Origin: Nitrospira sp.
Lineage (GTDB): Bacteria > Nitrospirota > Nitrospiria > Nitrospirales > Nitrospiraceae
Direction: 5' to 3'
Length of the DNA stretch: 64,000 nt
NCBI GenBank assembly: GCA_024998625.1
Contig: JACOEL010000002.1
Span: forward strand, 62,001-126,000
The position numbers and the translations under genes were made by a program. The notes under the pieces were generated by a model. That model was not told where the DNA came from, did not search any database, and saw nothing but the letters and a program-made list of their open reading frames with translations. Numbering within the stretch: position 1 is the stretch's first letter; the number at the start of each line of letters is the position of its first letter. Of this stretch, positions 47,791 to 55,424 are shown piece after piece.

Positions 47791-48267
47791 CTACTGCATC
47801 GAAGCCATCGGTTTCTCAACGATGTCGCCCTTCATCGGGCCCAATGCGCCCAGCAGCTCATTCTTCTCCCGTTCAGGCACTTTGAATTTGTTCAACGTGG
47901 CGACGAGGTCTCCGACCAGCGCGTCGAAGTCGCTGCTGCTGACCCCCATACCGGCATGGGTGCTCTTCATATTTCGCCCGGTGTAGGTGCAAGGTCCGCC
48001 CGACGCCTGACAGATTTGATCGACCAGCATCGATTTCAGACGCGGGATGTTGGCGTTGGCGAACTTCCCGTTGATGCGATTGTCCGCCGCCACGCGGCCG
48101 ACGAAGTCGTCGACTACTGCGGTAACGGCCGTCTTGCCCCCTAGCCGGTCGTAGAGAGATTTTTCAGTTGCTGCGGTGCCGGCCGGCCCTGAGCCGACCG
48201 TATTACAGGCTGCGAGGGTCAGCGCGAGACCAAGGATCACAGAAAGGGATGGTATTCGTTGCGACAT
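47791..48267 (-). CDS. Lipoprotein with group 1 truncated haemoglobin domain
   Basis: A 158-residue protein with a lipobox LAAC (Cys21) and a truncated-haemoglobin fold. The start of the globin is SLYDRLGGKTAVTAVVDDFVGRV, and the proximal haem ligand is the histidine in STHAGMGVS. It lacks the usual Phe-Tyr pair at B9-B10, having FV. Most truncated globins are cytoplasmic, so a membrane-anchored periplasmic form is unusual. It may bind O2 or NO, but no reaction can be assigned. It is divergent from the sigma factor gene. Confidence 0.82.
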   Translation of the reverse strand: MSQRIPSLSVILGLALTLAACNTVGSGPAGTAATEKSLYDRLGGKTAVTAVVDDFVGRVAADNRINGKFANANIPRLKSMLVDQICQASGGPCTYTGRNMKSTHAGMGVSSSDFDALVGDLVATLNKFKVPEREKNELLGALGPMKGDIVEKPMASMQ

Positions 48268-48489
48268 GAGAGTACCTCCTGGTTATGGGGCTGACAGTTG
48301 GGCCGGGTATGTCACGACATCGACCGGCTCTCTGTCTCGAACTACGAAGTGGAGCGGTAGTTGGATTTCCCGGGAACGAAAAAACTCCGTTGTGCCCCGA
48401 TCGTTCTGGTGCTAGAGTTTCGGCGGATCGGCGCAGGTAGAGGGAATCTAGGTCACCGGGCAGACTCGTAGTTCTTGACGAGGATGCTC

Positions 48490-49095
48490 ATGAGTCAATC
48501 ACAGGCAGTGGCACAGGCACCTTCGATGCATGAGCAGGAATGGACGGGACTTCTCGCGCGCATTGCCGCCGGAGACCAGCCTGCGCTTGCGGAATTCTAT
48601 GATGCGAGCAGTGCCAAGGTGTTCGGGCTGGCGATGAAGATCCTCGCGGATCGCACGGCTGCTGAAGAAGTCACCATGGATGTGTATACGCAAGTGTGGC
48701 GCCGCGCCTCCACCTACGACGCGGAGAGAGGCACGCCGGGGAGTTGGCTGATGACGCTCGCGAAGACCCGGGCCATCGACCGGTTCCGGAGCAGCTATCT
48801 GGAGCAGGGACGGCAAGTCCCTCTCGATCAAGCGGCGGAGTTGCCGGGTGATGTGGCGACTCCTGAGCAATACAGTGCCGACCTGGAACGGCAGCGGCTG
48901 GTGCAGGAAGCTCTGGCGAGCCTTTCCGCCGAGCAGCGTCAGGCGATTGCCTTGGCGTACTATTGGGGTTTGAGTCAGAGTGAAATCGCCGACCGATTGA
49001 AGTTGCCGTTAGGGACGGTCAAGACGCGGATGAGGCTGGGCATGATCAGATTGCGAGAGGTCCTGGCTCCGCATGGTGAAGGGTTGCGGTCATGA
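48490..49095 (+). CDS. ECF-type RNA polymerase sigma factor
   Basis: A 201-residue sigma-70 family protein with region 2 (about 20-95, including MDVYTQVWRRASTYD and GSWLMTLAKTRAIDRFR) and region 4 (about 135-195, with the helix-turn-helix GLSQSEIADRLKLPLGTVKTRM). It probably directs transcription of a stress regulon. The ATG at 48490 has GAGG six bases upstream and is preferred to the TTG at 48475. It is coupled by a four-base overlap to the following gene, a probable anti-sigma factor. Confidence 0.88.
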   Translation: MSQSQAVAQAPSMHEQEWTGLLARIAAGDQPALAEFYDASSAKVFGLAMKILADRTAAEEVTMDVYTQVWRRASTYDAERGTPGSWLMTLAKTRAIDRFRSSYLEQGRQVPLDQAAELPGDVATPEQYSADLERQRLVQEALASLSAEQRQAIALAYYWGLSQSEIADRLKLPLGTVKTRMRLGMIRLREVLAPHGEGLRS

Positions 49096-49673
49096 CCGAT
49101 CCACGCCACAAAGAGATGTCTCAGCTCGCGGCGCTTTATGCCTTGGAGGCCCTGGGGGATGACGGCCAGCGGCAATTCAAACAGTCTCTTGAGACGGCTC
49201 CTCCGGAAGTCCGGCAACAGGTCGCAGCGTTTCAGGATGTGGCGCAGGAGCTGGCGTTCAGCGGTCCCATCATCGTTCCCCCGGCGTCGCTCAAGGAGCG
49301 GCTCATGGCGCGTATCGCGCAGGAGCCGCAAGAACGGGAAGGCGCGGGGGACTTTACGTTTGTCCGATCGGCGCAGGTGGCGTGGCGGGACCTGGGCCCG
49401 GGTGTGTCCATGAAAATGCTGTTCCACGATCCAGCCGGAGCGCGGGCCACCATGTTGTTGCGGTTAGCTCCGGGCGGAAAACTAATGGCGCACCGCCACC
49501 GGCAAGTCGAAGAGTTCTACGTGCTGGAAGGGAGCTGTATCTGCGCCGGGGAATTCCTCCAAGCGGGAGACTACCACCGCGCCGCGGCCGGGAGCGCCCA
49601 TCCCATCACATCGAGCGAGCAGGGGTGCCTGGCCCTGGTGATGACCTCGACACAGAACGAAGAGGCCGGGTAA
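49092..49673 (+). CDS. Probable anti-sigma factor with cupin domain (ChrR-like)
   Basis: A 193-residue protein with an N-terminal helical region (ALYALEALGDDGQRQFKQSL) like the anti-sigma domain of RskA/ChrR proteins, and a C-terminal cupin (about 100-185). The cupin has the metal-ligand set in AHRHRQVEEFYVLEG and DYHRAAAGSAH. The overlap with the sigma gene implies that it holds the sigma factor inactive until a signal, perhaps oxidative, acts on the cupin. No transmembrane segment is visible. Confidence 0.78.
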   Translation: MTDPRHKEMSQLAALYALEALGDDGQRQFKQSLETAPPEVRQQVAAFQDVAQELAFSGPIIVPPASLKERLMARIAQEPQEREGAGDFTFVRSAQVAWRDLGPGVSMKMLFHDPAGARATMLLRLAPGGKLMAHRHRQVEEFYVLEGSCICAGEFLQAGDYHRAAAGSAHPITSSEQGCLALVMTSTQNEEAG

Positions 49674-52504: not shown

Positions 52505-52888
52505 GCCGATCCTCCATCATGGAAGCAGATGATGAATAAAAATCAGTCAAGCATGTCTCCAAGGTCCAGATCAAGACATTTTCCGCCGCTGTTGCAGAAC
52601 GGGACAGCAGGGACGCCGGAGTGACTCAGAAATACACGTATCATGAATTGGACGGAAGGGAAAAGCTGGAGGTGTAATCTGGTGGGAATGGCTATCGCGC
52701 GCGTGCGGCCGAGGCCAGGAAAACCGATGCCGAAACGCCCCGGCGCCCGTCCTGAAGGCTTGTCACCAGCGACTAGCGCCACCATCCGCCGGTAGATGTG
52801 AAGAATGATCGCCAGCCTGTAATGTTTCCCGCCTTGCTCCGTCTGTAAGGGTGAACGGCTGATTTCACCACTCACAGGGAGGACTCAC
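52505..52888. other. Intergenic region upstream of the DUF4396 gene
   Basis: These 384 bases separate divergent genes. No convincing gene is seen. A 110-codon minus-strand frame at 52543-52875 lacks a ribosome site and reads as low-quality protein. The right end holds a TGTAAT/GTCT element that resembles an ECF promoter. Confidence 0.45.
52818..52844 (+). promoter_or_regulatory. Candidate ECF-sigma promoter
   Basis: TGTAAT at 52818-52823 and GTCT at 52841-52844 are separated by 17 bases, a spacing and pair of motifs common to ECF-dependent promoters. It lies 45 bases before the DUF4396 gene. A looser match, TGTCAC with GTCT at 18 bases (48310-48337), lies upstream of the ECF sigma gene. The link between the two is a hypothesis. 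Confidence 0.35.
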
Positions 52889-53485
52889 ATGGCTCATCAC
52901 CAATCAGCGACGATCACCGCACCGCGTCACCCAGCGCCGCGAAGTCACGACCACCACACGAACGGGCATGACTGTGTGCAGGCTCACGGCGATCACCTTG
53001 ACCGTCATCAGCCTCACGAGCATCCGGAAGCGAACCACCAGGCCGCCTCGCTCGATCGAACGGCGCTCATGGCGACCCTGCATTGCTTGACGGGATGCAC
53101 CATCGGCGAAGTGATGGGCATGGCGATCGGCACCGCGTGGGGATGGAGCAATTGGCCGACGGTCGGTCTCGCTGTTGCGCTGGCATTCTTCTTCGGGTAT
53201 GCCATGACCTTGTATCCGTTGCGGCGGGCGGGTATGGCTTGGGGAACGGCGCTGGGGTTGGCCTTTGCGTCCGATACCCTCTCCATGGCCGCTATGGAAC
53301 TGGTGGACAACGCGATCATGGTGATGATTCCCGGTGCGATGGATGCCGGGTTGCCTGATCCGCTGTTCTGGGGCAGTCTGGTCTTGTCCCTTCTGCTGGC
53401 CGGAGCGGCGGCATTTCCCGTCAACCGCTGGTTGATCGCGCGGGGCAAGGGGCATGCGCGGGTGCACGGGCAGCACTGCCACTGA
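52889..53485 (+). CDS. DUF4396 membrane protein with histidine-rich N-terminus
   Basis: A 198-residue protein. The first 50 residues contain 13 histidines and a cysteine. A membrane domain follows, with about four helices, beginning LMATLHCLTGCTIGEVMG, and the C-terminus ends in a second His/Cys cluster (GQHCH). The His-rich tail strongly suggests metal binding, for example Cu, Zn or Ni. The family's function is not established. GGGAGG precedes the ATG. It lies upstream of a lipoprotein/barrel pair that may form part of the same metal-related module. Confidence 0.78.
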   Translation: MAHHQSATITAPRHPAPRSHDHHTNGHDCVQAHGDHLDRHQPHEHPEANHQAASLDRTALMATLHCLTGCTIGEVMGMAIGTAWGWSNWPTVGLAVALAFFFGYAMTLYPLRRAGMAWGTALGLAFASDTLSMAAMELVDNAIMVMIPGAMDAGLPDPLFWGSLVLSLLLAGAAAFPVNRWLIARGKGHARVHGQHCH

Positions 53486-53580
53486 GACGGTTCGGCTGCA
53501 ATCGTCGATCCGTTGCTGCGACATGCCTGGCTGCTGATGAGGGGCAGCCAGCCGGGTGGGATCGTCGTTCAGTCCTTCGA

Positions 53581-53596
53581 CGTACTTCACAGTACG
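53581..53596. repeat. Intergenic hairpin in a structured region
   Basis: CGTACT and AGTACG form a perfect six-base stem around TCAC. A GGCTGC/GCAGCC stem lies 50 bases upstream and a CGCG-rich inverted segment 30 bases downstream. The cluster may be an extragenic palindromic repeat. Confidence 0.4.
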
Positions 53597-53694
53597 CCTC
53601 AGTCCCTCACGACTCCGCGCGCCCGTCTCGCGGCGCGGCTTGACGATTGCGCAACGAACCGTCAGAAGCGATGACGGCTCAAGAGGAATTTGCG

Positions 53695-54642
53695 ATGAAG
53701 ACGCGCCCATATCTGTGCATGCTGGTGATCGTGACCACGGCCACGGTCGCCTTCGCGCTGGCTGGGTGCAGCCAGTTCGAGCCGCGCGACAAGCGTTTCT
53801 ATTACCGTGCGTTGTGGAATTTTTCGTTGCGGGAAGATCTGGCCGAACTCGACAGTGAGTTCAACGGCGTGGACTTCGGCCATTCGAATCTGTACGAGAA
53901 CCTGTTGCTGACCGGCGGTCAGGATGTACCGGCCATCGAGGGGCGGGCGCGCAAGCAGACGCTCGCGTTTATTGCGACCAAACCCCGGCTGAACCCGAAC
54001 GAGGAGGCGATTGCACCGACCTACATGAAGCTGGCCTGGCGCGCGCAGAACACGTTCGACGAAGCCCATGCCCTGCACCGCGCCACGTACGACATTGCGG
54101 TGTCGGACGAGCCGGAGAAGGATCGGGCCATCCGTAATGTGTTGGCGTACTATCAGGACAGCGCCTACGCGATCACGTCGAAGCGATTGGATCACCATCG
54201 ACTGGACCAGTTTCCCTATTCCAAGGCCTTCAGGACACGCTTCCCGCTGTTCAACGCGACGATCTGGTCGTACCACTATCTGCAGGTGGCCGTGTACGAC
54301 CCGTTGCGGGCCGCGCGTAACCTGGCCGCCAAGACGCAAGCGGTCCGGCCGATTCTTGCGACCTATCGGAGGTATCTCGAACAGCCGCCGGTGCAGTGGA
54401 CGTTCATGCCGCTCACGGCGGAACTGAGTCCGCAGTTCGCCGCGCGGTATCCTGAATTGGCCAACATCTTCGACAATCTCCATATGCTGCACGACAACAT
54501 CAGCGACATTCTTACGAGTGAGCGGCTTCCGACCTGGGAGGCGAAGCGGGCTGAAATTTATCGTGTGCTGAATCACTACTATCTCGCGAGTGCGGATGCG
54601 ACCAATCCGATGATCGTGCAAGGACAGGAGCATCACCATTGA
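53695..54642 (+). CDS. Lipoprotein of unknown function
   Basis: A 315-residue predicted lipoprotein with the lipobox LAGC (Cys24). The mature part is mainly helical and unusually rich in His and aromatic residues, for example HALHRATYD, RLDHHRLDQFPYS and HMLHDNISDI, and it ends in three His. I do not recognise a family. The ATG at 53695 has AGAGGAA before it and starts a good signal sequence; an upstream ATG at 53647 would precede that. Its stop overlaps the start of the barrel gene, so the two proteins are probably made together and act at the outer membrane. Confidence 0.65.
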   Translation: MKTRPYLCMLVIVTTATVAFALAGCSQFEPRDKRFYYRALWNFSLREDLAELDSEFNGVDFGHSNLYENLLLTGGQDVPAIEGRARKQTLAFIATKPRLNPNEEAIAPTYMKLAWRAQNTFDEAHALHRATYDIAVSDEPEKDRAIRNVLAYYQDSAYAITSKRLDHHRLDQFPYSKAFRTRFPLFNATIWSYHYLQVAVYDPLRAARNLAAKTQAVRPILATYRRYLEQPPVQWTFMPLTAELSPQFAARYPELANIFDNLHMLHDNISDILTSERLPTWEAKRAEIYRVLNHYYLASADATNPMIVQGQEHHH

Positions 54643-55424
54643 AGCTGAGAAGCGGGCGAGTCTTTGCGCGCTTGCTCGGCGCGGCCCTCGCGCTGGCGAC
54701 CGCGCCGCTGTTCGCCTTGGACCATGACAACCTCGATCCCAACCGTCCGATCGGCATGGAGGATGCCTATGCCATTCCGAAAGGGGAAATCGGCCTGGAA
54801 GGCGGGGTGAGGTTCAATGACCGTCGAGAAGGCCGCACGCAGGTGACGTTTCAACCGCAAATCATCTACGGCGCCTTCGCCAATACGCAGATCGAAATCC
54901 AAGGCGATCTGTTTACCGACCCGCGCTCCATCGTGGGGGCGAACAAGTCCGGCGATTTGCACCTGGGGGTCCTCTACAACTTCAATACGGAAACGTTGGT
55001 GCTGCCGGCGTTGGCCGTCCGGGTCGAGGCGGATGTACCCACCGGCGTGAATTCTAAAGGCGTGGATACGCAGTTCACCGGCATCCTGACCCGCTCGTTC
55101 GGGCGGCTGCGGGTGCACCTCAATGCGGGCTATACCGTGATCGGGTCGCCGCAAGGACAGGAGCGGCCCGGCGCCTATCGTGCCGTTGCCGCCGTCAGTT
55201 ACCCATTGGGCTACCCCACGAGTTTTCGCGATACGCTGATTGCCAGCGTCTCTACCCGCCAATCGGACCTGCGCGGGCAACAGAACCACACCGGCGTGGA
55301 AATCGGCATCCGGCATCAATTGACCTCGCGCGTCGTGCTCGACGGCGGGCTCGGTACCGAGTTTGTCGGGCCGGCGGATCGCGCCGCGTTGCTGGGGACA
55401 ATGGGGGTCTCCGTCGGATTTTAG
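54639..55424 (+). CDS. Outer-membrane beta-barrel protein
   Basis: A 261-residue exported protein. The signal peptide ends near PLFA. The mature chain consists of alternating strands with the short turns typical of porin-like barrels, such as FQPQIIYGAF, LRVHLNAGYTVIG and HTGVEIGIRHQL. The last residue is Phe, as in proteins inserted by the BAM complex. The TTG start overlaps the lipoprotein stop and has AGGAG eight bases upstream. It resembles small transporters of the MetA-pathway type, but substrate and function are unknown. Confidence 0.7.
   Translation: MKLRSGRVFARLLGAALALATAPLFALDHDNLDPNRPIGMEDAYAIPKGEIGLEGGVRFNDRREGRTQVTFQPQIIYGAFANTQIEIQGDLFTDPRSIVGANKSGDLHLGVLYNFNTETLVLPALAVRVEADVPTGVNSKGVDTQFTGILTRSFGRLRVHLNAGYTVIGSPQGQERPGAYRAVAAVSYPLGYPTSFRDTLIASVSTRQSDLRGQQNHTGVEIGIRHQLTSRVVLDGGLGTEFVGPADRAALLGTMGVSVGF

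Follow-up and report, generated by a model that had tools for sequence, protein, structure and literature searches.

We analysed a stretch of 64,000 nucleotides from Nitrospira sp. (GenBank assembly GCA_024998625.1, contig JACOEL010000002.1, positions 62,001 to 126,000 of the forward strand), which we call the window, and within it a row of three plus strand genes that encode a DUF4396 protein, a lipoprotein and an outer-membrane barrel. A preliminary description of this DNA had taken the three as a possible envelope-spanning system for handling a transition metal or haem. The comparison with other genomes shows that the lipoprotein and the barrel are the core unit of this locus, and the gene neighbourhoods of their relatives point to copper. 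The features of the locus are the following, with the predicted local distance difference test (pLDDT) and the predicted template modelling score (pTM) given for the AlphaFold2 models.

52889 to 53485, plus strand: DUF4396 inner-membrane protein, 198 amino acids (PF14342, E=1.6e-42; the family is elsewhere fused to multicopper oxidase)
52889 to 53053, plus strand: residues 1-55 of the DUF4396 protein, a His-rich N-terminal tail presumed to bind metal (13 His in residues 1-50)
53486 to 53694, plus strand: spacer of 209 bp between the DUF4396 and lipoprotein genes
53695 to 54642, plus strand: lipoprotein, 315 amino acids, with a Cys25 lipobox and a duplicated, all-helical six-His domain (pLDDT 92.4, pTM 0.90)
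53782 to 54168, plus strand: first repeat of the lipoprotein, residues 30-158, with D60xxH63 and H125xxH128 (hhalign of the N-terminal against the C-terminal half)
54169 to 54594, plus strand: second repeat of the lipoprotein, residues 159-300, with H194xxQ197 and H263xxH266 (same hhalign comparison)
53881 to 53883, plus strand: codon of H63 (80/80 letters)
54067 to 54078, plus strand: H125xxH128 (each His 80/80 letters)
54274 to 54285, plus strand: H194xxQ197 (Q197 is His in the seven relatives where D60 is also His)
54481 to 54492, plus strand: H263xxH266 (each His 80/80 letters)
54639 to 55424, plus strand: outer-membrane beta-barrel, 261 amino acids, last residue Phe (PF13557; pLDDT 83.6)
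54639 to 54642, plus strand: TTGA overlap of the lipoprotein stop and the barrel start, read in the sequence

Most of what had been read from the letters alone holds at the level of the single genes. The first protein belongs to DUF4396 (145.7 bits to PF14342, with a gathering score of 27), our count of its N-terminal His agrees with the one given before, and its C-terminus carries His and Cys as claimed, ending in GHARVHGQHCH. The TTGA overlap and the terminal Phe of the barrel are also as described. The region had been started at 52818, which is upstream sequence; the DUF4396 gene begins at 52889. The best start of the lipoprotein gene is the ATG at 53695, the mechanical open reading frame beginning at a TTG at 53647, and the protein has the lipobox LAGC and the C-terminus EHHH. 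The barrel gene starts with TTG and encodes a signal peptide. No sigma-70-type promoter match was found in the spacer of 209 bp, so the three genes could form a single operon; scanning for promoters and terminators yielded no signal stronger than in shuffled sequence, and a tRNA scan gave no informative signal at the locus. None of the three proteins has a match in PHROGs, PADLOC or NCBIfam. Of the named relatives of the lipoprotein in the genome collection, those from 'Candidatus Nitrospira defluvii' and from Nitrospira metagenome-assembled genomes (MAGs) are the closest.

To see which genes travel together, each gene was searched separately in 61 genomes (the window's own and 60 relatives), of which 29 are in the genus. 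The lipoprotein and the barrel are present in 27 of these 29 and absent from G012 and G017. DUF4396 is over the cut-off in 18, and in all 18 of these congeners it adjoins the pair on the same contig; the copy in G005 is partial with an internal stop, and G009 has a remnant below the cut-off in the same position. DUF4396 also occurs with the pair missing in six more genomes from the same family or order (G031, G032, G043, G046, G051 and G053). The preliminary description had treated the three genes as one unit and had proposed co-occurrence in other genomes as a check. The trio does recur in other species and also in the genera g2 (L219, L220), g20 (L217) and g21 (L216), but only the lipoprotein-barrel pair is stable, and DUF4396 is an optional, probably old partner of it.

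The pair was then followed in a first set of 80 lipoprotein loci, drawn from a collection of 84,980 species genomes, and a second set of 40 further loci. In 77 of the 80 the barrel is the same-strand neighbour of the lipoprotein, which in the other three lies at a contig end (L128, L133 and L158); in the second set the two adjoin in 37 of the 40, the exceptions being L206-L208. Wherever both genes are seen they are adjacent and on the same strand (114 of 114 loci, with at least one duplicate), in the order lipoprotein-barrel in Nitrospira loci and barrel-lipoprotein in most Gemmatimonadota. The association goes as far as fusion, as all seven candidates (L136, L159, L163, L168, L171, L229 and L234) are single open reading frames with the barrel first and a linker that has no Met. 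The ends of the PcoB barrel face the periplasm according to PMC9210255, and if the same is true here the fused helical domain would be periplasmic. The three exceptions are divergent Gemmatimonadota loci in which most of the conserved His are gone and no barrel lies next to the lipoprotein. Since these degenerate loci are the only complete ones without an adjoining barrel, the His set and the barrel go together. When a single draw of 198 genomes from another phylum was searched, the lipoprotein turned up in the seed genome only. On a Methylobacterium plasmid (L087:5881-12780) the genes that come after the pair carry annotations as complex I-like subunits.

The lipoprotein had been called rich in His, which is only moderately so (12 of 315 residues, 3.8%); what matters instead is a set of six near-invariant His. 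H63, H125, H128, H194, H263 and H266 are invariant in the first set (80/80 letters), and D60, E68, E103, Y132 and D133 likewise. Among 123 lipoproteins, a set with at least two duplicates (L224 = L172 and L226 = L088), the residues at 60/63/125/128/194/197/263/266 read DHHHHQHH in 110 and HHHHHHHH in seven; three more are truncated or gapped without contradicting this, and the last three are the degenerate L206-L208. Every one of the 117 complete, non-degenerate relatives retains the six core His, which the three degenerate ones have lost. These residues are arranged by a tandem duplication, in which residues 30-158 align with residues 159-300 over 128 columns (hhalign probability 98.4, E 6.5e-14). 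The score is 75.3, whereas none of 30 column-shuffled controls exceeded 9.2, and the probability falls to 0.1 with one half reversed; for the seven HHHHHHHH proteins alone the probability is 99.0 with an E of 3e-18. The alignment of the repeats pairs H125xxH128 with H263xxH266 and D60xxH63 with H194xxQ197, making four HxxH-type motifs. That D60 and Q197 are both His in the same seven proteins fits two equivalent sites.

Searches for a known family or fold of this domain gave little. No Pfam family is over its cut-off for the lipoprotein, and among 56 relatives no family matches more than two members. DUF4760 was considered and rejected, with 22.7 bits against a cut-off of 25 and a presence in 2 of the 56 relatives. 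The AlphaFold2 model, built on 56 sequences, is all helical; the alignment behind it held 55 of the 56 listed loci and the window (L135 was excluded by hand), and the fold alignments leave out relatives that are short, contain X or share more than 92% (lipoprotein) or 93% (barrel) identity with a retained row. Foldseek found no match to this model in the PDB at E<=0.001, and a PDB sequence search gave nothing useful. On structural realignment the best Z is 4.3, to a G-protein-coupled receptor and unrelated helical receptors, which does not by itself prove a new fold. There are two Cys, one in the signal and one in the lipobox. Many Gemmatimonadota lipoproteins (e.g. L134, L151 and L167) have long, copper-buffer-like C-terminal tails rich in Met and His, with up to 41 Met, and some C-termini carry an additional uncharacterised domain.

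Type-3 (binuclear) copper proteins, such as tyrosinase and haemocyanin, likewise have six helical His, grouped three and three. The likeness of the lipoprotein to them is an analogy only. Unlike them, its two His sets arise by tandem duplication with HxxH spacing and have no Pfam match, with neither Cu-oxidase (multicopper oxidase) nor tyrosinase/haemocyanin domains found by Pfam in the lipoprotein or its relatives. The type-3 fold is absent among the fold matches listed, which are not sufficient to exclude it.

The barrel is easier to place. It matches PF13557 (Phenol_MetA_deg) marginally, with 25.5 bits at a cut-off of 22, and 30 of 58 barrel relatives match this family at E<=0.01. The best structural match of its model is FapF (Z 22.7, root-mean-square deviation 2.5, 213 residues), and the COG4313 channel (4rl8) is close behind with a Z of 22.0 and a deviation of 2.5 over 213 residues. 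PcoB is in the Foldseek list at rank 40 with an E of 1e-4. PF05275, the PcoB/CopB family, has no match in the window barrel (E<=1), in the 58 relatives (E<=0.01) or anywhere in the window genome. Residues invariant in the 58 relatives, in the numbering of the modelled stretch, include D20, E96, R136, H138, N140, R203 and Q205.

DUF4396 is a family of bacteria and haloarchaea with no assigned function, and the window protein is a full member of it. Its N-terminus is not conserved in sequence but stays rich in His, with 6-19 His per 58-70 residues across the 17 listed relatives. The family is fused to multicopper oxidase, with DUF4396 at the oxidase N-terminus, in a sister genus (L021:199-2139, minus strand) and in L165 (2005-3912, minus strand); the latter locus holds the fusion, CopA and the lipoprotein-barrel pair together. 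Such fusions are common on plasmids: used as a query, the L021 fusion finds 28 plasmid records with at least 80% query coverage, from Afipia and Bradyrhizobium through Deinococcus to cyanobacteria, and on some plasmids it is split into adjacent 'copper oxidase' and 'DUF4396' genes. We also sampled 12 stretches around stand-alone DUF4396 from 33 matching plasmid records, of which two (L089 and L092) are unannotated and were not judged. Copper or heavy-metal genes lie within 8 kb in 6 of the 10 annotated stretches, a seventh has no more than an HMA gene roughly 6 kb away, and three have none. The neighbours include DUF305, a CsoR-type regulator, HMA, a P-type ATPase, CopC, plastocyanin and a four-helix copper protein. 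PMC7760498 names DUF4396 as flanking a metal-resistance cluster. A PDB sequence search with the window protein gave one chance match (E 1.3). There is a weak match of the protein encoded at 52889-53485 to TMEM65 (PF10507, E 0.37), which may reflect distant kinship; PF10507 was found in 0 of 198 Nitrospirota genomes, in a search in which no control genome matched either. TMEM65 is reportedly a mitochondrial Na/Ca exchanger.

The gene neighbourhoods of the pair were counted in 43 non-Nitrospira loci and 37 Nitrospira-type loci, with L140 included in the Nitrospira set. A P-type ATPase is present in 12 of the 43, ten of them with CPC or CPH, one with SPC and one of another type. The expectation is 0.68, given 146 matches over the 144.7 Mb of the 41 genomes that carry these loci and the 590 kb examined; the nominal value of 1e-11 for this enrichment is not a true probability, as the expectation treats related loci as independent. 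The 43 loci also hold six CopC-CopD, six CsoR-like regulators, six CusA-like pumps and two multicopper oxidases, and 16 of them have an ATPase, CopC-CopD or a multicopper oxidase. In ten loci the lipoprotein gene has CopC-CopD downstream on its own strand, and the coupling can be tight, with an overlap of 4 nt in L147, L157, L167, L232 and L233, an overlap of 1 nt in L162 and abutting genes in L227. In L147, Pfam confirms the domains of CopC and CopD together with ones of the AcrB and CusB types. Of the 26 Gemmatimonadota loci in a second draw, 8 have a match to an ATPase, CopC-CopD or CsoR.

In some Nitrospira genomes the pair occurs twice, the second copy being about 75% and 66% identical. 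That of L125 has a CopA, with the motifs CPC and MTCAAC, at a distance of 99 nt, in L188 a CopA is about 1.3 kb away, and in L186-L188 the copies are near genes of CusBA-like resistance-nodulation-division (RND) pumps. Barrel remnants near RND genes are seen in L190 and L191. The pumps of L186 and L187 have a DFG...D motif, which we take to be typical of divalent-metal pumps, and two that adjoin the pair outside Nitrospira (L147 and L162) have a G-x-MIDAA motif, presumably that of CusA. Given the divalent-type motif in L186 and L187, the metal need not be copper alone.

Taken together, the lipoprotein-barrel pair, with DUF4396 as an option, is a real and conserved module of the cell envelope, most likely one that handles copper. 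The transition-metal part of the original proposal is well supported, and the fusions and neighbourhoods narrow the metal down to copper, alone or with other heavy metals, while no context seen supports the haem part. The best reading of its role would be a PcoB-like entry or capture of copper made of unrelated parts. The barrel would be an outer-membrane channel of the COG4313/FapF type, and the lipoprotein would be anchored, probably at the periplasmic face of the outer membrane, beside it. The helical domain could bind metal by two symmetrical ligand sets, D60/H63/H125/H128 and H194/Q197/H263/H266, and could receive copper from the barrel or deliver copper to it. DUF4396 with its His-rich tail would be the optional partner in the inner membrane, a place that CopC-CopD or the DUF4396-multicopper oxidase fusion may fill elsewhere. 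We infer the metal binding, copper over other metals, the physical relay and its direction. The direction is taken as entry or periplasmic capture because of the coupling to CopC-CopD, which is described as an uptake system in PMC13374858.

Several observations weigh against this. No copper gene was found near the window copy or its orthologues, and a CopA-type ATPase is seen in just one of the 37 Nitrospira-type loci, the paralogue L125. Outside Nitrospira, 27 of the 43 loci are without an ATPase, CopC-CopD or multicopper oxidase in the sequence around the pair, and in the second draw 18 of the 26 loci are without an ATPase, CopC-CopD or CsoR. The RND pump near two of the second copies has the DFG...D motif, the His-less relatives L206 and L207 are still near CopC-CopD, and the module is coupled both to CopC-CopD and to efflux pumps. 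The loci are also phylogenetically non-independent.

The strongest alternative, though one we consider unlikely, is that the pair is a general accessory of heavy-metal efflux (Zn, Co, Cd, Ni) in RND/CzcCBA-like islands. RND pumps are found near the pair or its remnants in L186 and L187 (with DFG...D), L188, L190, L191 and L124, and the HxxH ligands would suit Zn. However, the more specific neighbours are CopC-CopD, CopA/CopB-type ATPases, CsoR-like regulators and multicopper oxidase, and the pumps that adjoin the pair in L147 and L162 have the motif we associate with CusA. Somewhat more doubtful still is that the helical domain is a periplasmic metallo-oxidase, with a binuclear Cu or Fe site of 3+3 or 4+4 ligands and a product or substrate that passes through the barrel. 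In its favour, the His are surrounded by acidic and Tyr residues that do not change (D133, D260 and Y132). Twin-arginine-like starts, found by pattern in L087, L209 and L127 and by eye in L086 (DRRAFLR), are a weak hint that some relatives are exported folded with the cofactor in place. This pattern is rare (3 of 123), though, the Met/His-rich tails resemble a carrier or buffer, and the Pfam, PDB and Foldseek searches found no relation in sequence or fold to a known oxidase. Handling of haem is very improbable: His-rich helices can in general ligate haem, but the neighbourhoods examined contained no gene recognised as one for haem, the lipoprotein has no CxxCH, and HxxH pairs on one face of a helix would better suit metal chelation. 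That three unrelated envelope genes are neighbours by chance is hardly credible, for although DUF4396 is not beside the pair in 9 of the 27 pair-bearing genus genomes and is 209 bp from the lipoprotein gene, it adjoins the pair in every congener that has it and in three other genera, is near the pair in Gemmatimonadota L165 and L227 (weakly in L227, E 2e-9), and the lipoprotein and barrel are fused in seven loci.

Further upstream, the window has a truncated-globin protein (PF01152) with a lipoprotein-like signal at 47791-48267 on the minus strand, and at 48475-49673 on the plus strand an extracytoplasmic function (ECF)-type sigma factor followed by an overlapping gene that by eye resembles a cupin anti-sigma factor.

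The copper-handling module we propose can be compared with known systems. According to PMC9210255, PcoB is a barrel of 12 strands through which Cu is reported to enter. As in PcoABCD/CopABCD, an outer-membrane barrel lies beside CopC-CopD-type genes in copper islands. Unlike PcoB/CopB, the window barrel matches PF13557 and not PF05275, PcoB stands far below FapF in its Foldseek list, and its partner is the duplicated six-His helical domain and not PcoA. The module does not match PcoB/CopB in sequence and is hence not placed there, and it seems to resemble the Pco system in its apparent role. With the COG4313/Phenol_MetA_deg channels and FapF it shares the barrel fold, with PF13557 over the cut-off. 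We know of no metal link for these channels. FapF, by its entry title, secretes amyloid subunits, while the window barrel is tied to or fused with the six-His domain. We found no description of the lipoprotein-barrel pair in the literature, where the protein is unnamed and subscription papers were not covered.

The passage of copper across the outer membrane is poorly known outside PcoB/CopB. In a 2026 study PcoB is reported as almost confined to comammox Nitrospira, and the nitrite-oxidizer MAGs obtained there as being without PcoC (PMC13374858). Among our genus genomes the pair is in 27 of 29, compared with 4 of 29 for PF05275 (G012, G016, G020 and G021); G012, which carries PF05275, is also one of the two genomes without the pair. 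No comammox or canonical guild was assigned to these genomes, as the ammonia monooxygenase family PF02461 matched nowhere, controls included. The most novel element of the module is the duplicated six-His domain. More tentatively, we suggest that this domain is a copper family of a new fold with two symmetrical four-ligand sites (ancestrally HxxH + HxxH per repeat), which, bound or fused to a COG4313-type barrel, would be a device for copper entry and capture at the outer membrane. In canonical nitrite-oxidizing Nitrospira, mostly without PcoB, it might then be the step of copper supply that is missing at the outer membrane, and would pass copper to DUF4396 in the inner one. If the pair does handle copper, it would give an unnamed protein family with fixed and testable ligand residues and suggest a role for DUF4396, and the copper supply of an important nitrifier would become testable.

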